DNA of 64,000 nt from Hydractinia symbiolongicarpus (Eukaryota; Cnidaria; Hydrozoa; Anthoathecata; Hydractiniidae). The position numbers and the translations under genes were made by a program. The notes under the pieces are model-generated. The model had not been told where the DNA came from. It saw only the letters and a program-made list of their open reading frames with translations, and ran no database searches. This document shows, piece by piece, positions 42,561-63,370 of the stretch (within the stretch, counting starts at the first letter, position 1; the number at the start of each line of letters is the position of its first letter). Where the stretch lies: contig NC_079885.1 of NCBI RefSeq assembly GCF_029227915.1, positions 7,690,001 to 7,754,000 of the forward strand, read 5' to 3'.

Positions 42561-42966
42561 TTCCCAGTAAAAACTAACTCTCACGAAGACATTCCATTGC
42601 AAATTCGAACGCGCGAGCTTCCTTTATTCATAATTCGAATGTTTATTATTATAATGGTTTATACAGTAGAATCTCGGTTATTCGAACCTGAACTTATTCG
42701 AATAATTCGGTTATTCGAAGTGAGTTGGCGTTCCCCTTGGATCTGCTTACCCAACTCAGGCAAAAACACTCTCGGTTATTCGAACTTCAGTTATTCGAAT
42801 AATTCGGTTATTCGAAGTGATTTTTATTCCCCTTGGGGCCAATTATAGGCTAAGTCACCCTCAGTTATTCGAATTTTTCTTATTGGGAGATCGTCGAGTG
42901 AGAACATTGATTTTCTGCGATTAAAACACTTTTTTTCTTCAAAAAATCAGGTTTCAATATTCATGG

Positions 42967-43389
42967 CTATTTACACTCTTCAAGCAATTTCTTCAAAAGT
43001 TCAATATTCTCCTTCGGTCCAGAGAATTGAAGCAAACAGGGGATCCTCAATCCCTTATCATCTCCAAAGTTAGTTCTTTTCCCCGTCACTTTTACTTTGC
43101 AAGTACACAACATCTCTGACTTCAGAAAGTAAAATATCGTTTTGGCAAATTTTCCTGTTTTTCCTTTAGGCAAATGACCAACAATATCTCCTTTTTTTCA
43201 GACCGCCACTGCATATTTGTCTATGTCGTTTGTTGGTTCCATTTTAGCTTCTAGGACTTCACCAATAACAGCGTTCCATTTCTTTTGATACTCATGATAT
43301 CCCATAACGGTTGAGTTACTCTCATAATACTTGATAAGAATGATTTCTATCGGCTGTGTTTCGTTGATTATCATTGAAACAAGATTCAT
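42967..43389 (-). pseudogene. HIRAN-like domain protein of Tigger copy 1
   Basis: The probable start is the ATG at 43387-43389. The frame runs through MGYHEYQKKWNAVIGEVLEA and the conserved EPTNDIDKYAVAV, then an in-frame TGA at 43198-43200, and resumes in the same frame as KKGDIVGHLPKGKTGKFAK, then FYFL, VKVTGKR and LRIPC, stopping at 42967. The pattern E-P-x-N-x2-D-x-(Y)-AVAV...VGHLP is that of HIRAN domains, which in HLTF/RAD5 bind 3' ends of single-stranded DNA at stalled forks. About 140 codons, one domain only. It diverges from the transposase with a 229-bp spacer that probably holds a shared promoter. The single TGA makes this copy inactive unless read through. Confidence 0.7.
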
Positions 43390-43617
43390 TGTAATTTTCA
43401 CTTCTTCGTCCTAATTGTGGTGTGACTGCTTTGTTGTTGTGTTGTTTCGTTTCGTTTTATAACATTCGAACGTTTTAAAAGGATCATTCAAAATCCGAAC
43501 GTTTCCTTTGATTTTCAAACGTTTCATCTAATTTTCGAACGTTTCGAAAGCTCGATTAAAAAACAAGTGGGTGGATGTAAACAAACTTTTTAAAGGCTCT
43601 TCAAATCCACATTAAAG
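43390..43617. promoter_or_regulatory. Spacer between divergent HIRAN-like and transposase genes
   Basis: The 228-bp spacer has repeats of CATTCGAACGTTT / TTTTCGAACGTTTCG type between the two divergent starts. It is inferred to be a bidirectional promoter. No clear TATA box was seen. Confidence 0.4.
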
Positions 43618-45190
43618 ATGGCAACCGCTCAGACAACGTCAAGGAAGAAAACTGTTCTGACGATCAAAGAAAAATATCTTGCTTTGAAAGAGCTTGAAAA
43701 AGAAGGAACAACTAAAAAGTCTATTGCTAAAAAGTATGGTGTCCCACCTAACACACTTTCATACTGGGTTAAGAATAAAAGTGACATTTTTACCAAGTAT
43801 GAATCAGGCCAGTATGGAGTTAAAAGACAAAAGCTTTCTTCCGGAAAATACGATAACATTGATAAAGCAGTTTACAAGTGGTTCGTTAACGCTCGTGAAA
43901 GAACTGTGCCGATTAGTGGTCAAATCATTCGAGAAAAAGCATTGGATTTTGCAAAGCAATTCAACGAACCTGATTTTAAAGCTTCAGAAGGCTGGCTAGA
44001 CAGATGGAAGTACAGACAAAACATCATTTACAGAATTATTTCTGGAGAGGAAAAGTCTTGTACACCAGGGATGACAGCAAGCTGGGAAGAAACACACCTG
44101 CCAACCATTTTGTCACGCTATGATTTACAAGACATTTTCAATGCTGATGAATTCGGCTTGTTCTACCAGATGCTTCCAACAAATACCTATCATGCCAAAG
44201 GTGAAAGATGTGCTGGTGGAAAGTTCAGCAAAGTTCGTTTAACAGGACTTGCAGCAGGAAATGCCCTAGGTGAAAAGTTGCCCATGTTCGTTATCGGAAA
44301 ATCGGTTACACCGCGCTGTTTCAAAGGAGTCAGAAGTCTTCCCTGTCAGTACAAAGCTCAAAAGAAGGCCTGGATGGATTCTGAAATCTTTACCGATTAT
44401 GTGAAAAAACTCGATGTTAAATTTGAAACTGCGGGTCGAAAGATTGTCTTGATAATTGACAATTGCCCAGCTCATCCAGAAGTCACTGGTCTTAAAGCAG
44501 TAGAATTAGTTTTTCTACCACCAAATACAACGTCTAAGACCCAGCCCATGGATCAAGGTGTAATCCGAGCATTGAAGGCATATTACCGGTCAAATCTTGT
44601 AAAACGTCAAATAAAGTTCATTGACGGCGGTGAAGAGGTCCCTAAAATTAACATTCTTGAAGGGATGCAAATCTTGGTCAAATCATGGGACGCTGTTTCA
44701 AAAGACACCGTTAAAAACTGCTTTAAGAAGGCAGGCATCTCAAAAGAAGCACAGATCACGAGTCTCAATGATGCTGATCCCATTTAAATCTCTTTCTGAT
44801 AGCATAAACGAGTTGAAAAAAAGAGAAGTTGACGGCGACATCTTTAACGCAGATGATTTTGTGGATATTGATTTTGAGGTATGCACGAGTAAATCAATTG
44901 AATTGACTGATGAGGAAATCGTGGAAATCGTACTTAATGAGGACAAAGATCAAAACGCGCCGAATCTCGAAGATGACGATGATGATGAAATTGAGGCACA
45001 TGACATCCCCCCGAAGAAGCCAAAGCAGTCAGAGTTGGAAGAGGCCTTAGAATTGTTGGAAAGATGGTCTTTGTTTGACGAGAATGGTCTTGAAATCAGA
45101 AAGCAGTTAAACATGATAACACGTACATGTCAAAAACACTACATCGATAGTAAAAAACAATGTAGCATTAAAGATTTTTTTAAGAGTTGA
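43618..45190 (+). pseudogene. Tigger/pogo transposase (copy 1), one frameshift
   Basis: The ATG at 43618 is in good context. Residues 10-55 form a CENP-B/pogo N-terminal helix-turn-helix (KSIAKKYGVPPNTLSYW). Residues 75-135 form the second CENP-B-type DNA-binding helix region (ASEGWLDRWK). The DDE_1 domain spans about 155-365 with three aspartates: D177 (NADEFG), D281 (IIDNCPAHP) and D312 (PMDQGVIR), 30 residues between the last two, as in pogo. The frame stops at 44787 after DADPI; a one-base shift in GATCCCATTT (about 44778) restores the expected continuation, an acidic tail ending at 45190. The last residues include QCSIKDFF, a canonical PCNA-interacting box. Intronless, unlike copy 2. Full length would be about 520 residues, normal for Tigger. 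Confidence 0.88.
45158..45181 (+). other. PIP box (PCNA-binding motif) at transposase C-terminus
   Basis: QCSIKDFF fits Q-x-x-I-x-x-F-F exactly, followed by KS and the stop. Tigger copy 2 has the same motif at the same place. Confidence 0.75.
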
Positions 45191-45469
45191 ACTCCTTGTA
45201 TTTACTAGATACATTTTCTTTATAACTTTCATATTTTAAAACCTGTTAACAATTTGTTCAAATTTATTCTTTCTTCAAAAAGTAAAAATTCTTTGTGTTT
45301 ACACGCTCAACTGAACCACAATGCCTCAATTACTTAAGAAAAGTCCATCCCATTAAGGTTAAGTTGAAAATCTGGCGGGAAAACGAATTTTTCAGTTATT
45401 CGAACTCCCGGTTATTCGAAGTAAATTCTTATCCCCCTTGAGGCTTCGAATAACCGGGAGTCTACTGTA

Positions 45470-46870
45470 TAATAAACTTTTGTTATATTTTATTGTTGAA
45501 CTTAATTTATGTAAAACGAATATATTTTATGAGTTTTCAGGGAGAGTTATGAGAGCTTTTTGAGAGAATAGATAAAATAATTGAGAATTTAAATTTTAAT
45601 AATAATTTGGAGGCGATATTATCGTGGTCGAGAAGTCCACAAAATCATCTTTGGATGCGCAAATTTAAAGGATGCGCAAATTTAAAAAAATACTTAAGAA
45701 AAATCTAAGGTACGCAAAAATAATCTAAGATACGCAAAAATAATCTTAAGTGCGCAAAAATAATCTTAAGTGCGCAAAAATAATCTTAAGTGCTCAAAAA
45801 TAATTTGAAGTACGCAAAAATAATGGGAACTGTCATTTCGTCTACCGGTGGCAATGACTCAGCCAAGCTCTTCTACTGTCAGGCAAGAAGTTTTCAATAT
45901 TAAGTACATTCTGAATCAACGTGTGTTGGAATCACGGTGTTTCGCCCAACATAAGCTAAATATAAGATATAATGCGTCTAACAGCAAAAACATTCACTTG
46001 TCTGTATATGAAATCTCAAAAGGTTGAATACACTATTATAAGAAACAGTTATGTTTCATGTAGCTTGTTCTAATAGTGATAAGTGCGCATTGTTACAAAA
46101 ATGTGTATTTCTTATATTTTAGTGTAAAATAAAATGTAATTCTTGCAAAAAACTTTATGGTTCTGGTGTATATTGTTTCAACTGTAGCACAAAACTTCCC
46201 ACTAACATTTTAAAAGCTACTATAACTAAGCCCTTTAGAAAAAGGTTCACATAAAAACAGGTCTTGGATCTTCTGAAACGAAAGCATGATACACATTTAG
46301 CTTAAGGACATTGAAAAGCGATTGAAATCCTATTGACTTTCTAGAAAAACCTCATTTCATTAAGTTAAACAGAGTCGACAATTGTATTCTACGGGATTTC
46401 GTTATGTCAACTCTGTCAAATTTGGATCCAGAAGGTGCAGCATTGCGCGCAGCTCACTGACGTGTATATTACTGTGAGGGCCCCAGCTATCTGTGGCACG
46501 CAGACCGATGTAGCACGCAGACCGATATGACAAGCTTGAGCCATTTGGATTTCCAATACACAGATGTATCAATTAATATTGCAGGAAAGTCATATCATAG
46601 CTTCTAATAACAATCCTATGAGTAATCTTTACTTGCAAAAATTAAAGAGCTAGGCTTTTCGAACCATTGTAGAACCGAAAATGGAATAATAGCAGCGGCG
46701 CAGTTTTCCTTCAACCGCGAGAGCAAAGAACAACCACGTCACATTTATGGATCTTAACATCACAACCAATGCGTCGAAGCTTGGTGGGTTCAGTTTCGGC
46801 GTTAAAAAGCGGATTCATGTTCGATTTCTTTAAAGATATGGTAAATGATTGTGAGATAACAAGACAACAA
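45470..46870. other. Intergenic DNA with a 20-bp minisatellite
   Basis: No coding region is recognised. About six copies of a 20-bp unit lie at 45711-45828. The segment 46080-46870 shows nothing I can name. Confidence 0.55.
45711..45828. repeat. 20-bp minisatellite
   Basis: About six tandem units of the form AAG(T/A)(G/A)CGCAAAAATAATCTT with slight variation; adjacent units at 45738-45790 are nearly identical. Confidence 0.8.
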
Positions 46871-47650
46871 GGTGTAATGATGGAACTGGTCTAACGACCC
46901 TTGAAGTTAAAATTGTAGAGGTTACACCCTCTAGAGATCACAACGCAGTGCAAGATCTCCCTTTTTGCAAAGATAGTCTGTAGATTCAAGGTAATTGAAC
47001 CAAACAACCCTCTCTACACAATATCATTCGTACAACTAACGGTCGGTACACAAAAACTGACAACATAACAACAGAAGAAAGACATTACGACAACAATAGA
47101 ACAAAGAATTTACTCTAAAAATGAATAAATAAATATATATAAAACTATAAATATGAGCAGACAACCTCCCGAGCCTCTCGACTTGTGAACCTGGCACTAG
47201 CTTTCCACATGTGTTACGGGATTCCAACACTTAACCTTACACGGGTAGTTGTCGTTTTTGCTTTGAACTAGACAGAGGTCAGGACCATCCTGAAGACAGT
47301 GGAGTAATCTACGTGTAAAGTCACGGAAACAAGAAAGATAGAAATGAAAACCCCTTATATAGCTTCTTCCAAACATCAGGTATAGCAGGATCGTTAACCC
47401 TAAGTGAGCCAACTTAGCCTCCCTACAGAACTGGGGTTATAAGTGGGGTCGTTACACTCAAAGACAAGGCAATTGCCAAGCCCCCTTGCTAAGCTTCTTA
47501 TAACTGCTTTCTAGGAAAGCGGCGAGTGAGCGAACTCATGAACAACGGTAAACTGTATCTAAAACACACATCAGGAGTAATTTCAAACCGCTAGGAAAAA
47601 GAGGTCCCTCCCTCTTTTGATATAATGTACTCTCGTTTTAGTGCGAATTC
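46870..47650 (+). repeat. Retroelement tail and downstream repeat, copy A
   Basis: This aligns in order to 50985-51670: a TAGAGGTT...CCTCTA hairpin (46916-46933), AAGATCTCCC, AACCCTCT, then CTTGTGAACCTGGC, CACATGTGTTACGGGAT and ACTGGGGT. It is followed by a ubiquitin-protease-like pseudogene on the minus strand, as in the other copy. No protein frame is supported. Confidence 0.65.
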
Positions 47651-47725
47651 ACACACATTGTGGAGTTATCTAGATCAGATGGCTTGACACTAATCACTGC
47701 CCTAACATCACATTTTAACCATGTA
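47651..47725. other. Paralogous empty site for the Kolobok insertion
   Basis: This stretch (GAGTTATCTAGATCAGATGG, then ACTGCCCTAACATCACATTTTAACCAT) matches the two flanks of the Kolobok element joined together: GAGTTATTTAA at 51676-51685 plus ATCGGATGG at 59509 onward. It shows what the repeat looked like before the insertion. Confidence 0.65.
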
Positions 47726-47837
47726 TAACACCCTGATCTCTTATGTAAGAGAATAGGAGTAACTACATCGCAATGCAGATAAAACTAGTCTTTTAAGACG
47801 GAAAGTTTAATTAAAAAAAGGAGGTTTCTCTCCAAAG

Positions 47838-47975
47838 AATAAGAAGCTGCTGGAGAACTTCTGCATTCTCCCCTTTACAGGGATAATCGGAAAGTTAATG
47901 GATTTCGACTGTACTGAAACAAACACCTATGAATGTGGAAACACGAGGATTGGTGAAATTCACTCATGCTTGGGA
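47838..47975 (+). repeat. Retroelement 3' tail with paired hairpins, copy E
   Basis: GGAGAACTTC...TTCTCC (47852-47871) is followed by CCCCTTTACAGGG, then ATGGATTTCGACTGTACTGA and ATGAATGTGGAAACA. A near copy lies at 63876-64000. Confidence 0.7.
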
Positions 47976-48029
47976 TCTGGTGCGGGCCCTTGAGTAAGCA
48001 TCCCCTGCCTCCTGCGAGACACCAGCCAC

Positions 48030-48670
48030 ATTCATTGACACCGTCCGCCAAAACCAATAACTTTTGTTAAACTTTGGAAAAAGAAAAGTCGACAGCTGCA
48101 AATCGTACCAGCCGCCAGTGTGCCTGAATGATTAATAGTGGCGGTTAATTTATAATGGTTTGTGAGTGGTATATCCTTCGCAGGATGGGAATAAACTTTT
48201 GGGGTTTGGTAACCTTGGGCGAGGCAAGAAACTGGATACAGTTCAACCTCTTCAGTTCGATGATAAGTATATCTCCACCCTGCGCGAAGACAGTTTCCTG
48301 TGTACTGTCTTGAAGGGAAGAGCACTGCGGGCACATCCATCTGTCATTTTCAGACATATATTCTGATTGCAAAAAAGCTTTAAAGGAGCCTGTTATGTTG
48401 TTTGAGACAGGGAGTGGCAGAATAGACATACTTTCCTCCCTACTAGAAGACAAGAGGCATAAATTACAAGATATTGTTGTAGGTACTTTGTTGGTAATCA
48501 TGTTGTTAGCGATAACTGATCGCCCCGTCAACTCGTTCAATATATGAGGTAGAATCTCAGGAACATCCTGCTGTGTGGTAATAATGAATTGGTTAGTTTC
48601 GGACATCTTACGTTGTAACGCTCGGAGAAAGGCGGAATGTGCTACAACTGAGGTGGATTTAGACAACGGT
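48030..48670 (-). pseudogene. Ubiquitin-specific-protease-like fragment, copy 1
   Basis: The minus frame shows QQDVPEILPHILNEL, two cysteine pairs of the USP zinc site (CNLC and CPQC about 60 residues apart), and GDILIIELKR, then shifts frame to reach HYKLTATINHSGTLAAG. These are blocks of the USP catalytic fold, which removes ubiquitin from proteins. The N-terminal catalytic-cysteine box is absent from what I can read. The GHYWAF histidine box is lost through a short deletion after GTLAAG. So it is a dead fragment. It sits in a repeat unit that also occurs at 59570-60095. Confidence 0.65.
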
Positions 48671-48903
48671 GGATTTAGACAACAAAGACATAGTCAGCAT
48701 CTGTAACTCCTGCACTTTGTGACCAAAGTGCAGGAGTTACAGATAATGCTTGCAGGATAGAATTAGCATAGCATGTGGAATACATTATTAATTAGGCCAG
48801 CATGAGTTGGTTTTGCTGAAGTGCTGTTGGTAGGCGGTTCAGGGTCCGGGTGCAAGTGACATTTATCCACAGTTGGCCTTATTTGTTGATGCTGTTGTCG
48901 TAG

Positions 48904-50400
48904 CTACGGGCTTGTAACCTTTGGCAATAGAGGGATAGGCATGGATGTTGAGCCTGACGCAAGATTACAGCTGCCTTGGTTCCACGTAATTGAGTTCCTG
49001 GCTAGCCAAATGCAGAAGGATGCTTTCATACAAGTGTCGCCTAATTTCCGGACGGCGTGGAAAGCGTTTTTGTTTGGGAAACCCAATCCTTTTAAACAAA
49101 TTGCAACCGACCGAGAGTAATATCCAGGTGCACCCACTTCAAGTGCGAACAGATTTACTTGCCATCCATTATGCCCGATGATATTTATCAAAGGGATGTA
49201 CTTAGAGAGCTTTTTCGAGTGTCAGGTTTCCATGTTTTCACCACAAGGGCAAGTAAGTTCAATTAAAATAACGCGTTTGCTGTTGTTGGAATACAGGACA
49301 AGATCTGGTGTAAACGATGTTATTGCATTATGCCGCGGAAAAGTTCACCATTTAAATCTGAAAGAAATAACCAGTCAGTGGCAACATGCAAAAGGCCTAC
49401 CGGTTTTGATTTTTTGCTAGATGGGTGACGACTACATGCTTTAACAAACTTTATATAATTTAGGTGCTTTACAGAAGAGGAAATAGCTTTGGAAAATGTG
49501 GTGATCAACTGCGAAAGTTCGCGCAAGACAGAGTCGTGACGAAACGTAAATCTACCCTGTGTTAACCCTATTCGGTCCGGGGTTTTTCGAACATACTATG
49601 ACCGGGGGGGCGGATTCCGCCCCCCCTCAATAACTTTTCATAGGGTTGTTCAAATTGAATCAAACTTGGCACACTTATAGTACGTCATAAAAGGAACAAA
49701 ATGGCGCCAAAAAAATTTTGCTTGCGTCAGCACATTTTCTGTGACGTCATCAAAAGCTTAAAAATTGTTAAAAATGCCACTATCTGCTTAAAATATAATT
49801 ACTTTTGTTCTAGAGCGAATTTTTACATTCTGTTTGAAGTTTCTGAAAGCTAAATAAAAGTTATTTAACATATCTTCCGGTTTTTATATGGATCTGATAA
49901 AAAATTGCCAAAAATTGCCCGAAAATCCGTTTCTTTCCGATTTTCGGGTAGAGTCCGACAAAATCGGGAAATCGGATTAGTCACGTGTTCAAATTAATCA
50001 AAATGATTCTTCTTAATGAAACAAAGTTGTGTTGCAAGTTTCAAGTTCTAAGGATAATCCTAACAGGAGTTATTATATTTTCTCCATTATAAGGATTTCA
50101 TAGAGATTCTTAGGGGTAGTTTCGAGTAATGGCCAATATCAAAGCCTCTGAAAGGTATGGGACCTAAAAAATTTGCATGCAGGTGTCTAATAGATAAATG
50201 TTGAAACTCAGTAAGTATCATAGCCATATAACAAAGCAATCAGGAGTTATTAAAAAAAAACCGTCAGGGGGGGGCGGAATCCGCCCCCCCCCCCCGGACC
50301 GAATAGGGTTAAAGCCGTTTTGCAGGCCGCAAAATGTGAGCTAAATGCAGACTTGTTTTCAACAGAAACAGAAGGATTCGGTACAAATATGCCAACGCCC
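48904..50400 (-). pseudogene. Retroelement ORF C-terminal fragment split by a MITE
   Basis: Reading on the minus strand from right to left: CKTALTQGRFTFRHDSVLRE is assembled across the MITE (50313 side, then 49565 side). It continues as LSQLITTFSKAI, then after a frame change TPDLVLYSNNSKRVILIELTC, one stop, KKLSKYIPLINIIGHNGWQV and LFALEVGAPGYYSRSV, ending CSFCIWLARN-like near 49000. The P-D...I-E-L-T pattern suggests a PD-(D/E)XK nuclease-like domain at the end of a retroelement polyprotein. That family link is from memory of similar invertebrate and fish repeats. Several stops show decay. Confidence 0.5.
49566..50308. mobile_element. piggyBac-like MITE, TTAA target
   Basis: TTAA lies on both sides (49562-49565, 50309-50312). 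The ends are exact inverted repeats CCCTATTCGGTCCGGGG. A second inverted pair, GGGGGGGCGGATTCCGCCCC (49604-49625) and its partner near 50268-50290, lies just inside. CCCT ends with TTAA duplication fit piggyBac. No transposase. It interrupts the retroelement fragment above; joining the flanks restores that frame. Confidence 0.85.
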
Positions 50401-50720
50401 TTAATTACTCGGAGAAGGAAGAACTTCGTAGGTGTAGCTCAAACAGAACAACAACAGGTTTGGTGGCATAGCAAGCAAAGACTTCCAGGAGAGGCAAGAA
50501 TGAAAATTACAAAGTGCACGCACAATGATAAACTCGACCAGTTAAGTCTTAAAATTTAAATTCTAGAGGTTTTGCTCCTCTAAAGAATATGCTCATATAA
50601 AGGAACACAATTCTTCCTTTCTCCAAGGAGGTAATTGCCACAAAAATTAAACAAAGAAACAGACAGAGAGGGTAGGACAGGACTTCTGTAAAGGGTACAA
50701 GGTTTTCGACTCATATTCCT
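50400..50720 (+). repeat. Retroelement 3' tail, copy D
   Basis: A short frame end (KLDQLSLKI-stop) is followed by TAGAGGTTTTGCTCCTCTA (50564-50582), CCTTTCTCCAAGG (50616-50628) and TTTTCGACTCATATTCCTGA. The same order follows the Penelope-like ORF at 63370, so this is probably the 3' end of a related element. Confidence 0.55.
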
Positions 50721-50984
50721 GAACCAAGGTACCCAAAATGTCTATCTGATATAGCTTTCCCATCTGGTCCAACTTCCTTGCACTTGTAGTTGCAAAGCAC
50801 TGCTAATATCCTTTTCACCATCAATTTTCTTTTGCGGTCGCTGATACTACTTTTCTGTAAGAATGAGACTGTCTAAGAGAAGTTCCCTTAGGTTTAGGAC
50901 AGAGACCTATACCGCCATGGAGTACTGGTATGCTATTTAACCAATACGTCTGATCAATTAAATTTTTTTATGAGATAACAAAAC

Positions 50985-51670
50985 AGCAACCTGTAGTGAT
51001 TCGACTAGTCTAATGACTCTTATTTTAAGTGGTAGAGGTTAAACCCTCTAAAGACCTCTATGCAAAGCAAGATCTCCCTTTTACAAGGGTGGTACAACCA
51101 AGTTAATTGAAAAAGCAACCCTCTGGACAATACAAATATTGCAACAACAAAACAAAAAACATACATTGACATAAAACGTATATATATACAAATAAATAAA
51201 AACTATAAAAAGGTGGCTAACAACTACCTATGCGCCAGGACTTGTGAACCTGGCTGTAGCTTTACACATGTTACGGGATCCCAACACTCAGCCTTACACA
51301 GGTGATTGATATTTAGGACCAGCCTTGGTCTGGACCAGCCTGAGGTTACTGGGGTGATACGCGTGGGCGTAAAACCACGAAGACATGAAAGAGAAATTTC
51401 ACACCCCCTTGCAGAGCTTCTTACAAGAATAACTATGGGTACAGCATGATCATTAACCCTGTAGACCAAGAGAGCAAAGTTGGCCTCCCTACTGGACTGG
51501 GGTAAAAAATGGGGTCGTCGCACCCGAGTGAAAACTCTAGGTTCACGGTAGACTGCTTGTGACAGAAACAGCCGGGGTAATACAAAACTGCTAGGGAAAG
51601 ATAACCCTCCCCTTTTATGTGAATGTAAATCAGACAATTTTTAAATTTTGACAAAAAACAACACATACAC
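50985..51670 (+). repeat. Retroelement tail and downstream repeat, copy B
   Basis: This aligns in order to 46870-47650. Hairpins are TAGAGGTTAAACCCTCTA (51033-51050) and CCCTTTTACAAGGG (51076-51089). It is interrupted at its right end by the Kolobok element, beyond which the repeat resumes at 59509. Confidence 0.65.
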
Positions 51671-54600
51671 AGAAGAGTTATTTAAAGGTACTGTCCAGTA
51701 AAAATATAATAATAAAAAAGTAGCCTGAACTGAATTCAACTTACCTTATTTGTTGCGAAAATATAAGTAATTATCTTTCTAAAGTTTTACAACTCGCACA
51801 ACATTTCCAATATGTTTACAAATTTTTCATAGTGCACGTTTTGGAAAGCATGTTTATACTGAAGCGATTCTACATGAAAGGGAGGCTAAAATAATATTTT
51901 TGTTGTGACGTAAGCGTTGGGTTCCCGGCGAATCAAAACATTGTAAATAGAAAATGATTGTTTTACTCTGAAAATTATTGCCAGATTAAATTTAATTTTT
52001 GTAATATTTTACCCCCTTTTAAAAAAAATGTAGCAATTTATGAATACATAATTTCAAAGCATGCGACTCACTTTCAGAGATAGAACTTTATGTCCCTGTC
52101 CACACAAACAGAATGTCTGTCTACAAAAATTAAAGTAGATTATTTTAAAGCAGCTTTATTTTTTGTGCCGGAACTGAGACCAGACACGGATAATATCAGC
52201 CTTACAGAATTGGAATTGTATAAATCTGTGCCATGCGTTTGTCTCTGTCTTTGATAACGATACAATTTTAAAATGTCTTGGTGTGTTGTCGTCAACTGTT
52301 CAAGTAAAAGTAAGAAGAAAAAAAAGAAAAAGAAAAACGAGGAAAGTGCAAATGTTACTGAAACCGAGAAAAAAACCTTTTTTTCACTTCCAACTGATTC
52401 TAAAATGAGGTCAATTTGGCTAAGAAATATAAATCGTACAGCTTTACCTTCCATCGTGAAGGTCTGTTCGGACCATTTTGAAGAAAGTTGTTTTGACCCT
52501 TCGTGGGATATTCAAAATTCTTGTTCTCCGTATAAGAACCGGACTCAGAGGAGAAAACTTTTACCTACTGCCATTCCAACTATTTTTCCATATAAGGATA
52601 AGCCAAAAGAGCGGGAAACATCAACTCGTAGAAGGAAAATAAAAGAACATGAAGAGGTATGAACAACTTTTATTAGATCTGGTAATAGTTTGAAAAACGT
52701 TTTAAATTTCAGCAGTGAGCATTGAAGTTGTAGCCTTATTGTAGGTAATGGTAAGTAAAAATTTGATGGTGGTCTCGTTCGAAACATACTATTTCCATTT
52801 TTCTGTCATTAGATTGTAGGGCAAGCTATAGCCTCCTTAGATGCACCCGTTATTTTTCACCCGGTGGTATGTTCGTCGTCGTCTTTCGATGAACCTGAGC
52901 CATCATCATATTCGATCGGGTGCCAGGCTGTAGTAACCACGCGCAATTCATCTACCCAATATAAAGATTATTTACAGAGAAATATATCTACGCAGACATC
53001 CGTTGGAGTGGCCAATGCCCAAACGCAGACAACATCGTGCGATGGTGAAATGAAAAAATCAGATGCCACATGTCAATTCGAATTTCTTGACGAATCTGGT
53101 AATCATTTTTTGTAACATACCAAACTATCCGCTGTTGTTGTCATATGGTACACAATTTCACATTAATTTATGTTTTAGAGCTGGACTCATCGTCAGAAGA
53201 GGAAGAATAATGAAGGTTCGTACCGTACCGTGTAATTAGTTGCGGCGCATCGTACATATTGAATTACACCAATACTTGACATTTAGATATGTTATTTATG
53301 CTTGGCTTGTCCAATATATATAAAAGGCAAAATGAGGAGTCCGAAGTCGATATGGAGTACGACACAGACGATGAATGCCAAATGGTTGGTGAAGGCGATG
53401 ATGTTTTAGATGGAGATGAGGATACAGATGATAAAAGTGACAAAAACGATTCTTGGTTATTGAAATCTTTAAGAAGGTAATTAAAACCTAATAGGGGACT
53501 GGTCGGTCTACCATTTAGTCAAATGAAAAATATACAATGCTATTTACTTTTTAAGGTGCGAAAGAGACGATCCAGATTTCGTGAACGATTACAAAATAGA
53601 CGACGATACAGATACTGATAGCGTTTCAGAAGAAGGTTGTAGTAAGGAGACAGAACCTATTTATCGTCAGTCTACATTTATAGTGTTCAAATCGAGCCTT
53701 ATGGAGTTGTTAAAGTTTTGTAACAAGTGTGGTGCTGCACTTAATCAAGCACTGACAGAAGAGCACCAAAATATGGGAAGTCAATTGTCAAATCGTTTTC
53801 GGTGTGTCAAAGGTACAACTTCTTACCATTGTTGTACCCAGGTTTAATTTTAGAAAAAACTCGCATTTTATTTGAATAAAGGCACGTGAACTGTAATGTT
53901 TGCACATTCTTCATGTAGGATGCGAATATGTTTGGTCATCACAACCAAAATGGAAAGGAACCAAAGGTGTTGGCAACCTTCTTTTAACAGCTGCAATTGA
54001 ATTGTCGGGTTCATCTTTTCACAAAGTTCGTAGATTTGCAAATTTACTCAACTTGAAGTTTATCGGAAAATCGACATATTACGAACACCGTGGGAACTAT
54101 ATTTTTCCAGAAATAAATCGGGCATGGCTTAAAAATCAAGAGGAGCAGGTCGCGGAAATGTTGTAGAGTGGGAAGTCGTTGGAACTAGCTGTAGATGGGC
54201 AATGTGATTCACCAGGACATAACGCTACATACAGTACAGTTTCTGCGATGGACACACTCACCAACAAAATATTGAACTTTAAAATTGTCCATGTAAAGGT
54301 AATTTTCTTATTTGTAGTTATGTTTTGTCAATGATATATCCACTGTGTTTTTATAAATGTTTGGAACATTTGCAAGGTTTGTATAAATATTTAGGAAGTT
54401 TCCAGTTCCCAGGCGATGGAAAAGAAGGGCTTCATAGATTGTATCGACGAAATCCAAGAAGCAAAACATCTCCCAATCAGGGTCATTTCCACCGATAGGT
54501 ACGTACAGCATTATTGTTCGCAGTTTATAAAGTATGTAACGCAAATTATATAGTCCAGATTGTTTCTTTGAAGGCATGTATCCATAAAGAAATTATTGAG

Positions 54601-56842
54601 AACTGATGAAAAATACAAGACAATAATACACCAATTTGACCCCTGGCATATTGGGAAAGGCTGTTTGAAGAAGCTGATGAAGGCTTCGAAGACCAAAAGT
54701 AATGGATGGTTGATATCTTTCACTACATTCTTTCATTGTTACTTGCAACACAACCACATACATGCTCGCTTTTTACATTTAGATATGAAGATACTTGCTA
54801 GGTGGGCTCCAGCGGTTGTCAACCACCTTTATTGGTCGATAGCGACATGCGGAGGCAATGGAAAAGAGTTGGCCGAGCGGTTTACTTCAATCGTTCACCA
54901 CTCTGTCAACAGGCATGTTTTTCCACATAATCAGTTTTATAGAAAGTGTGACTATCCACCTCTATCTAATGAAGCTTTAAGCAGGAAGGAGTGGTTAGAC
55001 ATGGGTTCGGCAGCACACGCCAAGTTAATGAAAGTAGTAACGCAACCAGTATTGGTGAAAGATTTGGAGAAGATGACTGAACATGTCAACACAACTTTGC
55101 TTGAAGTATTTCACTCGTTAAAAATACGGTATTTGCCTAAATCCACTTTTTTCAAAATGGAAAAAATGATTGCTGGTACGCAGTTAGCGATTCTAGACCA
55201 CAACAACAACGTCAACCGTGAACAGGTAAAGTTAAGTTTTTATAGGATAAGAGTAAAAACATAAATTTATTTATTCATCCATATAAATATATACAGTTGA
55301 ACTCATGTAATTCGAACTCCTATAATTCGAAAACTCACTTAATTCGAACAGATTCTGTGGTCCCCTCAGAATTTACCTTGAAAACCTTACAAGAAAACTC
55401 CTATAATTCGAACCAATGTAATTAGAAAAATCATGTAAATCGAACAGATTTTCCGGTCCCATCAAGAAATTTTAATCATGTAATTCGAATTTTTTGAGTT
55501 TTTGAAGCTTACCAACTCGATAATTTGCAATCGAATGTTTTTTTTTTACATTCGATTGGAGCTCGTCCACTGCTTTTGGCTTCCATTTCTTATCAAGACA
55601 AGATGGGGAAAAGAAAGCATAAAGAACTCACTTTAAAAACAAAATATGAAGCTCTCCGTGACTTGGAGGATGGTATGTCCAATAAAGACGCATCCATCAA
55701 GTACTCCGTTCCAAGCAGCACCTTGTCAACATGGAAGAACAATAAAGAGAAGATATTCCTTGCTTTCAAAAACTCACTAAAACGCCAGAGAGTTAAGACT
55801 GACAAGTACGAAAAATTGAATCAATCGTTGTTGACTTGGTTTACCTCAATGCGTGGTAACAACATCCCAATTAATGGACCAATTTTAATCGAGAAAGCTC
55901 GTGAATTTGCCACAGCATTCAACTATGAAGATTTTTCAGCATCGAACGGATGGTTGAGAGGCTGGAGGGAGAGGTAATACTTACTTGTCTATTATGTTCT
56001 AACAGGGTTTATTCTAATATGAATGCTTTCATTCAATGCACATAAGGATAAAAACTTCCGTAAGTTCGATATTTGCAACATGATCTTTTTTTACTATTCA
56101 GATATGGAATCACATTCAAAGAATTATCTGGGGAGTCCGCAAAAGTAACAAGTAAGATGACAGCACCTTGGGAAGAAACTACCCTACCAACTATATTGGC
56201 CAGATATGAATTAAAAGACATCTTCAATGCCGATGAATTCGGCCTATTCTACCAAGCGCTACCATCAAAGTCTTATCACTTCAAAGGAAAACGCTGTTCC
56301 GGCGGAAAGCACAGCAAAGTGCGCCTAACAGGAATGGCTGCATCCAATGCTTTGGGCGAAAGGCTTCCAATGTTTGTGATTGGAAAGTCCGCGAAACCCA
56401 GATGTTTCAAAAACGTGAGAAATCTACCCTGTCGGTATCGCTTGCAAAAAAATCCTGGCTGGATGGAGTATTATTTGAAGAATGGGTTAGAGAATTAGAT
56501 CGTAAATTCGAGCCACAAGGAAGGAAGATTGTTTTAACAGTCGACAACTGTCCCGCACACCCAAACTTCACAGAGTTAAAGGCTGTAAATCTACAATTCC
56601 TGCCACCTAACACCACTTCTTGTACCCAACCTATGGATCAAGGAGTTATCAGGTAAAATTTCTTCAAAGTTACTCATTATTCTGTTGTTTGGAAATATTT
56701 ATTTCCCATTCATTGTTTTGAAGCCATTCCAGTGTTGTCAAAGAAAAAAGTTTGTTTGGTAACACTAGAATGTCTTCCAATTACTCTCTACCAAAACAAA
56801 ACCAAATCAAAAATTTTTTTTGGCATACTAAACTTAAGTAAA

Positions 56843-57290
56843 ATGGCAATAACTAATATTGCAGAAGTTGTTGAAGTTTGTAGGAAGAAGATTTCTTTGA
56901 GTTATGAAATTCCATTGTCCGTAGTAAGGCAATTCAAATGCGAGTCAATGGTTAAAGGGTATCACGCCTATATGAATGAATGGACACCAGTTATTGGTGA
57001 ATCTTTACAAACGCGTCCTGAACCTGAGAACGAAAGAGATAAATATGCAGTTGCTGTGACAAAAGACAAAAGTTGGTCATTTAAAAAAAGGAAAAACTGG
57101 TCGATATGCAAAAACAATCTTTTACTTTTTACGATCTAAATCAACTAATGCTGCTAATATTTCTGTCACTGGAAAAAGAGTCAACCTAGGAGATGGAGAA
57201 GGCTTACAAATACCATGCACGATTACATTTGAAGGAGAAGAAAAATACTTAGACATTCTTAAGAGAGAGTTGAATTCATGCCCCTTGTGA
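56843..57290 (+). pseudogene. HIRAN-like domain protein of Tigger copy 2, within transposase intron
   Basis: ATG 56843 (MAITNIAEVVEVCRKKISLS). The frame includes VKGYHAYMNEWTPVIGESL and EPENERDKYAVAV, then a one-base shift at about 57067, after which the expected VGHLKKGKTGRYAKTIFYFL, NISVTGKRVN and LQIPC follow to TGA 57288-57290. It is closely similar to the gene in Tigger copy 1 (shared GYH-x-Y, DKYAVAV, KGKTG-x2-AKTIFYFL, VTGKR, IPC). It lies wholly inside transposase intron 2 (56653-57437), same strand. HIRAN domains bind single-stranded DNA 3' ends in fork-remodelling proteins; the role in a transposon is unknown. Confidence 0.7.
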
Positions 57291-58086
57291 ATGTAATTAT
57301 ATTTTCTTAGAAGGAAAGAAATGTAATGATTCGAAGAAAAAACAATTGTTTCCAATTTATCGAATTATAATCCCCAGAGCTATCTCAAAAAATGGATCTT
57401 AATTCATTCTAATAGACTTTCATTTTTTTTTGTTCAGGTCTTTGAAGGCAAAATACCGATCACTGGTAATTCGAAGGATCTTGATAGCGTTAGACAAGAA
57501 GGCTGAACTACCGAAAACATCAATTCTTGAAGCCATGATAATGCTCAAGACGGCTTGGGATAATGTGTAGAGTGAAACAATCGTAAATTGCTTTCGAAAA
57601 TCAGGAATCTCGGAGGTTGCAAGGAATGGTGCTATGGATGAGAATGACGATCCTTTCAAAGATACGGAAAGTGACAAGAGCGATTCAGACGACGAAAATG
57701 ATGAAACGAATGTTGTAGAAGATTTGAATCAAGACCTAGACCGATTACGAAAGATTAGACCTGACATTGCACCTGACGATCTGGATGTCGAATCGTTCAT
57801 TGATATAGATTTCAATGTTGTTACTAATGAATCACGCCCATTGTCTGTCAAAGAAATCGTGGATATGTATAAAAATCCAGAAGTATAAGTCATCGATGAC
57901 GGCTCTTCAGACGACGAAAGTGCAGAGTGTCCTGATGATGAACCAATTCCACCCCCATCGCAAAATGAGATTGACGACGCAATCGAGACTCTCAAAAATA
58001 TGACCCTTTTCGAATCATCGAACGTCATCCCATTGATTCAGAAGATCTCCGAAGAGATTTCCAAGAAACGAGAGCAGAAAATGAAA

Positions 58087-58110
58087 CAATCAACAATCAA
58101 AGACTTTTTC
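58087..58110 (+). other. PIP box at C-terminus of Tigger copy 2 transposase
   Basis: QSTIKDFF, fitting Q-x-x-I-x-x-F-F, is followed by EKL and the stop. The motif is conserved with copy 1 although the sequences just before it differ. Confidence 0.75.
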
Positions 58111-58787
58111 GAAAAATTATGAATTTAGTATTTCATTGTTCTAACTCGAAAATACAAAAAATAGTTCGAAAGTAAACCTGGGAAAGACTTTTTTCATCGA
58201 ATTAGGTCAAAAATATGAAAACTCATCTAGTTCGAAACTCATGTAATTCGAACAAAATTCTCGGTCCCTTGAGAATTCGAATTACATGAGTTCAACTGTA
58301 TTTAGAAATACAGTATTGACGAGGAAGGTGCAAAGATACCGCTATTCAAAATCGCGTACTCTAAGCCAAATCGAAGATACGGAGCAAAAATTATAAAAGA
58401 AGATAAAAGTTATGACTACTTAACTTACATCATACGCAGAGTCTTAAAACGGTCTCTATGCATGCGGAAAGCTACAAAGAAAAGTCGTTTAAAACGAAAA
58501 TGTTCATTAAAGATTGCTCCAGAAAACCGACCAGCGAAAGAACAAATTATAGAAAATGCATTGAAATACAAACGCATTAAATAAATTGTGGTTTATGTAC
58601 TTTTATATTTCCTAGATAATTATAAACCTCGTTCCCAGTACCCCTATTCTATCCCTCTCAATTAGCAAACAAAAATAAATTGGTTCCAGGTTATTCATAA
58701 TCACACTTTGTATATATATATATATATTTTAACCAACTGTAAATATTTTGAAAAATGTGCAAACTCGTTTGCACTACAGCTTTCTGT

Positions 58788-59170
58788 TTATTTTTTAATA
58801 TAAAAAAGTACTGAGTGCGAGGTTGTTTTTAATTTACAATCAAGTATTCTCGTCGTCAACTTCATTTGTCCAAACAAATCAATTTCAGGTATTTCTTCAC
58901 CTTCTTTGAAGCCAGTATACACCCTATTCGGTTAAGGTCAAGGTAAGGTCAAATTATATAGGTACCCTGTAGCTGGAATTATTTTATAGTGTCCACCTCG
59001 TTACAGCACAAACACTCAACAGCTGAAGACATCCTCTCGCACTTTTCACATAAGCACCATTCACTGACATCTATATGTGTGCGAGAAGCAGCGGGTGATT
59101 CTGGTGCGTCCGCTTTATCGTCATTATAAGAGGGAATTTGTTGTTTGTTATTGGGTCGTTCTGGCTCAAA
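58788..59170 (-). pseudogene. P2X7 ballast-like cysteine-rich gene of Kolobok, internally deleted
   Basis: An exon at about 58997-59170 follows a good acceptor (GGATTTCAG) and reads FEPERPNNKQQIPSYND onward to WCLCEKCERMSSAVECLCCN. The WCxCxxCxxM...ECxCC pattern matches the start of the zinc-binding cytoplasmic ballast domain of P2X7 receptors. A second block at 58788-58923, after an AG acceptor, reads VYTGFKEGEEIPEIDLF; P2X7 itself ends in a Y-x-G-F-K motif. The middle of the domain is missing (only about 70 bp separate the blocks). AATAAA overlaps the stop. It is convergent with the transposase, 204 bp between ends. The upstream exon was not found. Confidence 0.6.
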
Positions 59171-59569
59171 CTGAAATCCAATTACGTTTACACTTGTTTG
59201 TGAACATAATTGATAAACGTAAAAAAATTCTGTTGGGAATAACATTAACTTTTTTTTCTTCATTTCTCTTTCTGCAACCCAAAGAATACGTCATTGCATA
59301 AATTGCGCATATTAATGTTTTTACCCAGTCCTTTTCCGCGTTCGAAGTTCAGTAAAGATGGCGATTGAGAATGGCATAGTCAAGTAAACAAATTCAGTTT
59401 AAACTTATGAAAGACAATTTTGGTTGTATTTAAATGCTTTTTTCTTTACTTTTGTACCGAGATGTAAGTAATATCAAGTTTTAATTTTTTACCGGACAGT
59501 ACCTTTAAATCGGATGGTGCAACTCTAACAACTGCTTTATCGTCACATCTTAACCATAAGCCACAGCTG

Positions 59570-60095
59570 CGATCTTTAATGAATGCCCAATAGCGACCTG
59601 CTCATAGGGTGCCCGAATGATTAATAGTGGCAGCTAACAAATATTTGTTGTTAAATGATATGCCATCCGTTGGCTGAGAGCGAACTCTAAAAATATCGTC
59701 ATTTGAAGCAAGGCAGGTAACAAATTTGTTATAATTCAGGGTTCCTCCATCAAGAAACGTAAACCTCTTCAGTTGGATAATTAGAATGTCTCCACACTGG
59801 GTGAAAACCGTTTCGCTTGTACTGTATTGATAAGAAGAGCACTGCGGGCAAAGCCACCTGTCATTTCTAGACAAACTTTTGGGCTGCAAAAAACAATTAA
59901 TTGAATCTGTAATGCTGTTTGAGATAGGGAGTGGCAAAATAGGCATAGTTTCCTCCCTGATAGTTGATAAGAAGCATGCATTACATGACGTCATAGTGAT
60001 TATAATGTTGGTGATGATATTATTTGCGATAACCAAAGGGCCTGTAATTCACCCAAGACATGAAGCAGTGTTTCTGGCACGTCCTGCTGGGTATT
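59570..60095 (-). pseudogene. Ubiquitin-specific-protease-like fragment, copy 2
   Basis: Same family and same repeat unit as 48030-48670. Blocks on the minus strand: TQQDVPETLLHVLGEL, CNACFLSTIREE, RWLCPQCSS, GDILIIQLKRF and YLLAATINHSGTL. Then a TGA is followed by AGRYWAFIKD. The catalytic histidine of the GHYWAF box is arginine here, and frames change near 60035. It is dead as an enzyme. Confidence 0.65.
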
Positions 60096-61800: not shown

Positions 61801-62054
61801 GAGGCAACTCAACGATCATTATCATCTGTAAGGATCTGTGAGAAGGCGAAACAAAGCTTCGAGTGCTTGATATGTCTTGGTTGAGTCGAGTTAAAGAGGG
61901 TTGAGTTATTGTTCGTGGCAAAAGATTACGAACTTTTTTTGAAACAAATAATATGATGATAAAGTGCTTGCAAAAATACGTTCTGTCTTTCCGAATTTAT
62001 AAATCTTAAAAAACACCACTGTTCTTTTTAAAAAAATATTCTAAACACTCCTTC

Positions 62055-63370
62055 TTTAACACTAAAGTTGTTCTAACCAAAACATGGTATCTGTTTAATA
62101 AGAACTTCTACACTCAAACAGACGGAGTTGCCATGGGAGGCCCTGCATTATCAGTAGTCGCAGAAATATACATGCAAGCACACGAGACAACAGTATTAGT
62201 CACATCAGACAGACGTCCAAAGGTGTGGAAAAGATTTGTTGACGACGTATTCGCCATAATCAAAAGATCTCATCTAGAAGAGTTTCATGAACACATCAAC
62301 GGCCTACATCGACAAATCAAATTCACTGTTGAGCTTGAACACGATGGAAGTATCGCTTTTCTGTACACTTTGGTCAAACGCAAGAATGGTTCCATTTCAG
62401 TTTCAGTGTATCGTAAACCAACACACACTGACCAGTACCTTAACTTCGAATCAAACCATCAGAAACCTTGCAAAGAAAGTGTCATATCTTCATTACTGAA
62501 TCGTGCCAACAGCGTAGTCAGTGATAAACAGGAGAGGAAAATAGAAATTCGAGGTGTAAGAAATGAATTAATCGCAAATGGATACAGTCATAAAGTCATC
62601 ACGCAAGTAGAAAATAAAATGAAGAAAAGATGTAACGGAGACAACAAGGAAACATCAGAGGAATTTATCGCACCAGCATTCCTACCCTTCGTACCAGGTA
62701 CCAGCGAGATCCTTCGTCAAGTTTTAAGGCAACACAAGATCAAATGCATTCTTACCTCTAAAGACACCCTAGAAGCACTTTGACTAAACCAAAAGACAAA
62801 ATAAACCTGGAAGAACAAAGCAATGTTGTTTACGAAATCCCGTGTAAAGATTGTGATGCAGTGTATAAAGGCGAAACAAAAAGAAAGTTTAAGCAACGAG
62901 TACAAGAACATATGCGCGCAGTGAGAAACGGAGATGCGAAGAAAAACAAAATTGCGAACCACAGCTGGAGCAGAAGTCATCAGTTTAATTGGGATGAAAA
63001 GAAAATCATTGACAGAGAATCCAGAACAACGGCCAGGAAGATTAAAGAAACCATCAACAGTGTAGAACGTAACAAACACAAAACAGCATCTCGTATCAAC
63101 TTCCCGAAATTTGGTTACCAGCCCTACAGAAGAAGTAGTTACCTACATCCAGATCCGAAAATGTTAATTACCGTAATTAACTGTAATTATCAGCTCGTTT
63201 CTGATTGGTTAATTTTTATGAATTTCGATCCTCTGCAATTATATAAATACATGCGCAACATCATTTTACTTTGCCCGATGATGAGAGAAGGATCTCCCGA
63301 AACGTCGCCTACTAAAGAGGTGGCAAGCCACCGCAATCATGAACTCAACCTGTTAGGTCTTTGGAAATAA
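62055..63370 (+). pseudogene. Penelope-like element ORF: reverse transcriptase plus GIY-YIG, frameshifted
   Basis: The RT part begins truncated (FYTQTDGVAMGGPALSVVAE). The catalytic motif is RFVDDVFAI. The Penelope-type FLYTLVKRKNGS and VYRKPTHTDQYL follow. The frame stops at 62783 after DTLEAL; a one-base shift at about 62775 continues into the GIY-YIG nuclease region VVYEIPCKDCDAVYKGETKR with the characteristic C-x2-C and a downstream H (EHMRAV). YIG is YKG here. It stops at 63370. Penelope-like elements combine these two domains in one ORF. The 5' half of the RT is missing, as in most 5'-truncated copies. Confidence 0.85.
63277..63306 (+). ncRNA. Degenerate hammerhead-ribozyme-like core
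   Basis: TGATGAG, a GAGA/TCTC stem with AGGA loop, then CGAAAC and GTC occur in the right order and spacing for a hammerhead core. The invariant first C of CTGATGA is A, so it is probably inactive. Penelope-like elements are known to carry hammerheads near their terminal repeats. Confidence 0.35.

Follow-up and report, generated by a model that had tools for sequence, protein, structure and literature searches.

Two transposons at one locus

Our subject is a pair of pogo/Tigger DNA transposons, copy 1 and copy 2, and the small second gene that each carries beside its transposase, a gene for a HIRAN-like protein. Both lie in a 64,000-nucleotide stretch of the genome of the hydrozoan Hydractinia symbiolongicarpus (assembly GCF_029227915.1, contig NC_079885.1, positions 7,690,001 to 7,754,000), the whole of which we call the window. 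A first-pass annotation, made from the letters of the window, had placed the ends of both elements, and these proved exact, each flanked by TA, with the target duplication at 42662-42663 and 45468-45469 around copy 1 and at 55292-55293 and 58299-58300 around copy 2 (Table 1). The termini of copy 1 are CAGTAG...CTACTG, with terminal inverted repeats CAGTAGA.../...TCTACTG; those of copy 2 are CAGTTG...CAACTG, with inverted repeats CAGTTGAACTCATG.../...CATGAGTTCAACTG. The subterminal repeats differ just as had been claimed, being TTATTCGAA in copy 1 and TAATTCGAA in copy 2.

The two layouts described earlier also hold: the accessory gene is antisense and upstream in copy 1, and in copy 2 it lies in sense inside transposase intron 2. 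Both genes can indeed be located in each element, but neither window copy has an intact accessory gene or an intact transposase: copy 1 has a single in-frame TGA in the former and a frameshift near 44780 in the latter, and the lesions of copy 2 are listed in Table 1. The gap between the divergent start codons of copy 1 is presumably a shared promoter region. Profile searches give the copy 1 transposase DDE_1 (4.7e-38), HTH_Tnp_Tc5 (1.3e-18) and CENP-B_N (1.1e-11), and copy 2 exon 1 HTH_Tnp_Tc5 (1.1e-14) and CENP-B_N (1.2e-10). As for the immediate surroundings, short tandem repeats with a unit like AAGTGCGCAAAAATAATCTT lie directly outside copy 1 at about 45660-45830 (by eye), and copy 2 follows a THAP-domain exon (52258-52659, plus strand; Pfam 2.2e-16) and open reading frames with no Pfam match (53527-55261, plus strand), lying just past a GT near position 55226, as though the THAP-domain gene held it in one of its introns, again by eye.

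Table 1. Positions of the elements and their parts, in window coordinates unless a read is named
Feature	Position	Strand	Remarks
Copy 1, pogo/Tigger element	42664..45467	+	exact ends, terminal inverted repeats, TA duplication
Copy 1 HIRAN-like accessory gene, 140 residues	42967..43389	-	antisense, upstream, divergent from transposase
Copy 1 gap between divergent start codons	43390..43617		228 bp
Copy 1 transposase, one exon	43618..45190	+	524 residues in intact copies
Copy 2, pogo/Tigger element	55294..58298	+	exact ends, terminal inverted repeats, TA duplication
Copy 2 transposase exon 1	55603..55973	+	CENP-B_N, HTH_Tnp_Tc5; splice site by eye
Copy 2 transposase exon 2, DDE part	56102..56652	+	frameshifted in window copy; splice sites by eye
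Copy 2 intron 2, GT...AG, holding the accessory gene	56653..57437	+	from frame and homology
Copy 2 HIRAN-like accessory gene, about 150 residues	56843..57290	+	sense, in intron 2; one frameshift in window copy
Copy 2 transposase exon 3	57438..58122	+	in-frame stops in window copy
L059 element	1008-3936 of its read		
L060 element	996-3886 of its read		
L061 element	215-2991 of its read		

Copies, families and linkage across the genome

A DNA search of the 481-Mb assembly with copy 1 returned at least 60 matches (the best 40 of 208 candidates were scored), and among those scored are 12 full-length elements, the window copy included, at 98-100% identity. Eleven of these have TA on both sides and in the remaining one the 3' end is altered; seven have an open accessory frame (one of them with a 5-codon deletion), six an open transposase frame and four both. 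Their consensus encodes a 140-residue accessory protein and a 524-residue transposase with the catalytic motifs NADEFG, IDNCPAH and QPMDQGVI, in keeping with a DDxD triad (30 residues between the last two aspartates, counted by eye). Changes among the 12 HIRAN genes are singletons only (eight amino-acid-changing, five silent, two stop), and the transposases of the same copies carry 72 amino-acid-changing (two of them shared), 25 silent and six stop changes; the copy 1 family is a star-like burst followed by neutral decay after insertion. With copy 2 as query we found at least 86 matches, and the best 40 of 212 candidates comprise another full-length element, 97% identical, along with many copies that have internal deletions and relatives at about 65-83%. 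HIRAN sequence on the transposase strand is still present in L030, L031, L032, L033, L034, L036 and L037, and two decayed relatives, L063 and L064, have the gene in sense in intron 2.

Searching with the copy 1 transposase as protein gave at least 83 matches (82 of 1227 candidates scored), and we read the DNA of three families, L059, L060 and L061, at 51-53% identity to that transposase. All three have TA, terminal repeats, DDxD-like catalytic motifs and both genes, with the accessory gene antisense within intron 1, an intron whose place in the transposase protein is identical to that of intron 1 in copy 2; the DDE_1 and DNA-binding parts of their transposases are assigned by similarity to copy 1 only. 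In L060 and L061 the accessory frame is open but transposase exon 1 contains a stop, and in L059 the accessory frame is shifted. A distant pogo family, L068 (transposase identity 31-36%), has, over the part read, one open frame for its transposase, with a divergent antisense accessory gene upstream as in copy 1; its transposase matches DDE_1 (1.2e-38) and HTH_Tnp_Tc5 (2e-12), with no CENP-B_N at E 0.01, and its 5' end, the end that was read, is TA and then CAGT. With 17 matches covering 446-447 of 447 residues at 98-100% (best 94 of 849 candidates), this family looks like a young burst. Two L068-type HIRAN matches (C5:20882532 and C2:27530299) lie antisense and 5' of L068 transposase matches, and a third (C6:8164332) has no partner among the L068 matches listed. 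At two places (C12:8533197-8538540 and C10:19521675-19529904) an L068-family transposase match stands about 1.2 and about 4 kb from a full-length copy 1 element. Lastly, L069 is a HIRAN gene adjoining a transposase remnant. The earlier picture of two subfamilies was thus right that both carry the gene, but too narrow, and the genome holds at least six families with both genes, in three layouts.

These layouts bear directly on the idea that the second protein is a regulator, binding element DNA or the transposase and tuning transposase expression or activity (as an autorepressor or by overproduction control). The divergent genes of copy 1 with their shared 228-bp gap, and the fact that two of the three layouts have the gene in antisense, would suit mutual regulation, a logic that is broken by copy 2, L063 and L064, where the gene is in sense within intron 2. 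In addition, the subterminal repeats differ among families and, in the portion of PMC4666394 available to us, the HIRAN domain of HLTF bound single-stranded and not double-stranded DNA, and we regard a regulator as improbable. That the gene is kept at any position and on either strand argues for a trans-acting protein and not for an antisense or cis effect.

How firmly are the two genes tied together? Among the matches listed, a HIRAN match lies no more than 3 kb from 71 of the 83 transposase matches; the HIRAN lists hold the best 150 of 695 candidates and, in a second search, the best 150 of 811, and the counts are of matches, not elements, one broken element being able to yield two. The first list gives 70 linked pairs, every one antisense and 5' of the transposase match (23 of 27 copy 1 family matches and 47 of 56 others; the copy 2 layout is absent from them), and the second adds C8:17977641, by eye, to make the 71. 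By a hand estimate, some 0.2 such pairs would be expected by chance from 150 randomly scattered matches. A lack of the gene in most family members, the outcome that would have told against the first-pass annotation, was not found among these matches. Of the 12 unlinked matches listed, C4:7690300 and C4:7691578 belong to one element, and four HIRAN-less places were read. Three of these, L065, L066 and L067, are copies that have decayed or carry internal deletions, and transposase parts are missing from them as well; in L065 (978-3128) and L066 (192-1883) the deletion took the HIRAN gene together with a portion of exon 1 of the transposase and left the catalytic frame open. We had considered C4:23808015, C4:7690300 and C9:5565700 as HIRAN-free families, and rejected all three, since the first two belong to the L059 and L060 families as copies with internal deletions, and the last is a decayed copy 2 relative.

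The same lists speak to the notion of a nested parasite, in which the HIRAN gene belongs to a separate mobile unit that inserts into pogo elements. The gene does occupy three positions, and 81 of 150 HIRAN matches have no transposase match in the copy 1 transposase list (the best 82 of 1227), so free copies are possible. Set against this are the same side and orientation in all 70 linked matches and the shared intron of L059, L060 and L061, which leave such a unit a very slim chance.

The HIRAN-like protein and its constraint

The motifs by which the two accessory proteins had first been linked (GYHxY, DKYAVAV, KGKTGxxAKTIFYFL, VTGKR and IPC) are indeed all present and common to both, and the DNA of the two genes, aligned in inverted orientation, agrees at 75% across 105 columns (E 4e-6). 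The suggestion of a HIRAN fold is borne out by structure prediction, which gives the copy 1 protein that fold, and by the L068 accessory gene, which at 35.1 bits exceeds the curated PF08797 cut-off of 24.7 bits, a score that copies 1 and 2 do not reach; the profile also matches, at E 0.01, 24 of the 46 proteins in set A1 (the copy 1 protein and 45 of 120 listed homologues). One domain only is found in this protein of 140-150 residues. Identity to HLTF is 21-28%, and the HLTF-pocket positions N91, D94 and H110 are mostly kept across 122 proteins (those of 130-165 residues from a set of 194, minus P0189, P0193 and P0194, plus five genomic ones, L059 not being among them).

Homologues are plentiful in protein databases, with 479 of copy 2 type, 73 of copy 1 type and 423 of L068 type, and those listed (120, 73 and 120 by type) span 77-254 residues and have no precomputed Pfam domain besides HIRAN. 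Their organisms are not given and some may come from this or a near species; one, P0001, is 95% identical to the copy 2 query. Two single cases among them retain traces of an element: in P0101, one such among 314 proteins examined, a transposase catalytic motif (VDNCPAHP...) runs into the HIRAN domain (E 4e-11 to the transposase), and in P0252 the HIRAN domain runs into sequence like the L068 subterminal repeats (by eye). In viral contigs 63 stretches fit our search patterns and none encodes a relative.

A star-like burst decaying neutrally is uninformative about selection, and we therefore compared the HIRAN gene between families. In 28 of 28 pairs divergence is greatest at codon position 3 (z 1.3 to 5.3), although these come from eight sequences and are not independent. 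For the closest pair, copy 2 and L063, the non-synonymous rate dN is 0.14 and the synonymous rate dS 1.19 over 105 codons, a ratio of 0.12, and ratios of 0.14-0.32 come from five further pairs whose dS is finite (1.4-2.9, close to saturation), dS being saturated in 9 of 15 pairs. Purifying selection, which the first-pass annotation had proposed to look for in young copies, shows between families, but not, as we return to below, within the young copy 1 burst. The two genes also diverge in parallel, L068 being the most distant in both comparisons, and FastTree groups L060 with L061 in both the transposase and the HIRAN tree. L059 is in conflict, placed with copy 2 and L068 (0.99) by the transposase and with L060 and L061 (0.87) by the HIRAN protein. 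With about 130 columns, the trees do not decide between one acquisition and several; HLTF, when added, falls on a long branch beside L060 (0.74), so that the root of the HIRAN tree is not fixed.

It is here that the simplest alternative, a passive hitchhiker, must be faced: a host HIRAN gene picked up by accident on several occasions and useless to the element. Repeated capture would give differing layouts and could give the discordant placement of L059, and a host source may exist, P0193 presumably resembling other stand-alone animal HIRAN proteins. The constraint in all 28 (non-independent) pairs, the joint fall of HIRAN and transposase identities and the 71 of 83 linkage all speak the other way, and constraint above all largely refutes the hitchhiker, which we consider highly improbable. 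The first-pass annotation had argued from retention in rearranged subfamilies that the gene serves the element, and constraint between families together with linkage upholds this; we regard it as well supported. Two genes, three layouts, a predicted HIRAN fold, a constrained reading frame and linkage are what the analysis shows, and we are very confident that these are two-gene pogo/Tigger elements whose HIRAN gene is kept by selection.

Elsewhere in the window there are a match to P2RX7_C on a short open reading frame (58979-59287, minus strand; 4.4e-5, 23.9 against a cut-off of 23.5), a ubiquitin-hydrolase-like frame (UCH_1, 3.9e-5; 48145-48690, minus strand) with what appears by eye to be a diverged duplicate at 59602-60048 (minus strand), and frames at 62010-63370 (plus strand) that, by eye only, look like a Penelope-like reverse transcriptase that includes a GIY-YIG part. 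An Rfam scan of the window gave nothing at gathering score.

A possible role for the second protein

Transposases of the pogo group leave the element with free 3'-OH ends and the donor site with short 3' overhangs, and it is with these ends that our proposal begins. Gene 1 supplies an ordinary DDE transposase. Gene 2, which selection has retained in no fewer than six families even as it shifted position and strand within the element, supplies a stand-alone HIRAN-domain protein. This protein would bind the free 3'-OH strand ends exposed by the transposase, on the excised element as well as at the break left in the donor. Sitting on these ends, it might shield the post-cleavage transposase-DNA complex from a host remodeller of the HLTF/Rad5 type, which would find its targets through a HIRAN domain too, and integration could then be completed ahead of any stripping and processing of the ends. 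In the portion of PMC11237066 available to us, HLTF locates 3' ends via its HIRAN domain, and the free domain inhibits HLTF's removal of Cas9 as a dominant-negative in vitro. End binding, competition with HLTF and benefit to transposition are what we infer, and we put the whole, a two-gene element under selection together with this entire mechanism, forward tentatively, as somewhat short of an even chance. Its boldest form would be an old and widespread class of two-gene pogo elements, in which free HIRAN is a required co-factor that caps excised 3' ends, a natural dominant-negative of HLTF/Rad5, acquired once before the split of copy 1 and L068, moved at least twice (to intron 1 in antisense, to intron 2 in sense) and never lost; this we think possible but doubtful.

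A number of observations weigh against us. Copies 1 and 2, L060, L061 and L069 score under Pfam's HIRAN cut-off (21.8 and 22.5 bits for the window copies, 23.1 for the intact copy 1 protein, and 19.8, 18.2 and 20.5 for L060, L061 and L069). The stacking tyrosines of HLTF are not kept, Y72 being replaced by A, V, T or E in 122 of 122 proteins and Y93 being mostly I or V (N90 is mostly E), and DNA binding may therefore be weaker or different. The linkage count is not a census, coming as it does from best-match lists and from a transposase query taken from a HIRAN-bearing family, and in L062 (C1:8630971, 63% to copy 1) no HIRAN gene is seen in the 4.2 kb read; this locus, which is broken and has no N-terminal transposase part, is a possible HIRAN-less case. 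Within the 12 full-length copies of the copy 1 burst the HIRAN gene has no signal of selection either way, a result that neither supports nor refutes constraint, given the star-like burst and its neutral decay. Finally, constraint demonstrates use and not end-shielding in particular, and nothing links the HIRAN protein physically to the transposase.

Two other roles deserve a hearing. As a repair recruiter, the HIRAN protein would steer the donor break or a stalled fork to sister-templated repair, restoring the donor and raising copy number. Internally deleted copies, such as interrupted gap repair would give, are common in these families, but DNA transposons lacking a gene of this kind commonly have them too, and a single domain in 140-150 residues offers nothing visible with which to recruit a repair factor. 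A fork role for HIRAN does appear in the portion of PMC4666394 to hand, and we rate the recruiter as unlikely, though a real prospect. As a general anti-repair protein, it would instead block, for example, host HLTF/Rad5 fork remodelling in replication, away from the element's own ends. The dominant-negative effect in vitro (PMC11237066, again in part) suits this, but so general a block ought to be harmful to the host and nothing in the sequence points there, and we find it distinctly improbable.

Returning to the two-gene element itself, Tc1/mariner and pogo elements are generally seen as one-gene elements needing little from the host, and a transposase-only layout is usual for pogo/Tigger without being strictly defining. 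Ours resemble pogo/Tigger in DDE_1 and HTH_Tnp_Tc5, in CENP-B_N (L068 excepted), in CAGT-type ends and in the TA duplication, and depart from it in having, in the six families read, a second conserved gene in place of the single-gene layout. A survey of the group (PMC7325037), in the portion available, records several open reading frames for the ciliate Tec/TBE elements and otherwise treats extra frames in general terms, and the words HIRAN and intron are absent from its main text as available. No transposon with a HIRAN gene turned up among the titles and opening lines of abstracts searched, a set with few subscription papers and no preprints, and such an element may have been described elsewhere.

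If a conserved second gene does encode a DNA-end-binding fold, then in one branch these transposons bring along a factor of their own for handling ends, and transposons would be connected, in a way open to direct test, with the HLTF/Rad5 pathway of end recognition. The likeness to the HIRAN domain of HLTF/Rad5 lies in the predicted fold, the Pfam family and the mostly kept N91, D94 and H110; the difference is that ours is stand-alone and transposon-carried, with Y72 and Y93 replaced and 21-28% identity. Bacteria, too, have small HIRAN genes tied to mobile DNA, lying beside diDNase and HipA genes, but there the setting is one of islands, toxin-antitoxin systems and defence, and pairing with a DDE transposase is not described in the portion of PMC11706625 available to us. 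If we are right, many stand-alone HIRAN proteins in the databases (the 479, 73 and 423 homologues) may well be transposon genes and not host repair genes. Alike in outline are the Harbinger, CACTA and MULE transposons, which pair a transposase with a second element-encoded protein, although their accessory proteins are of other kinds, such as the Myb-like protein of Harbinger.

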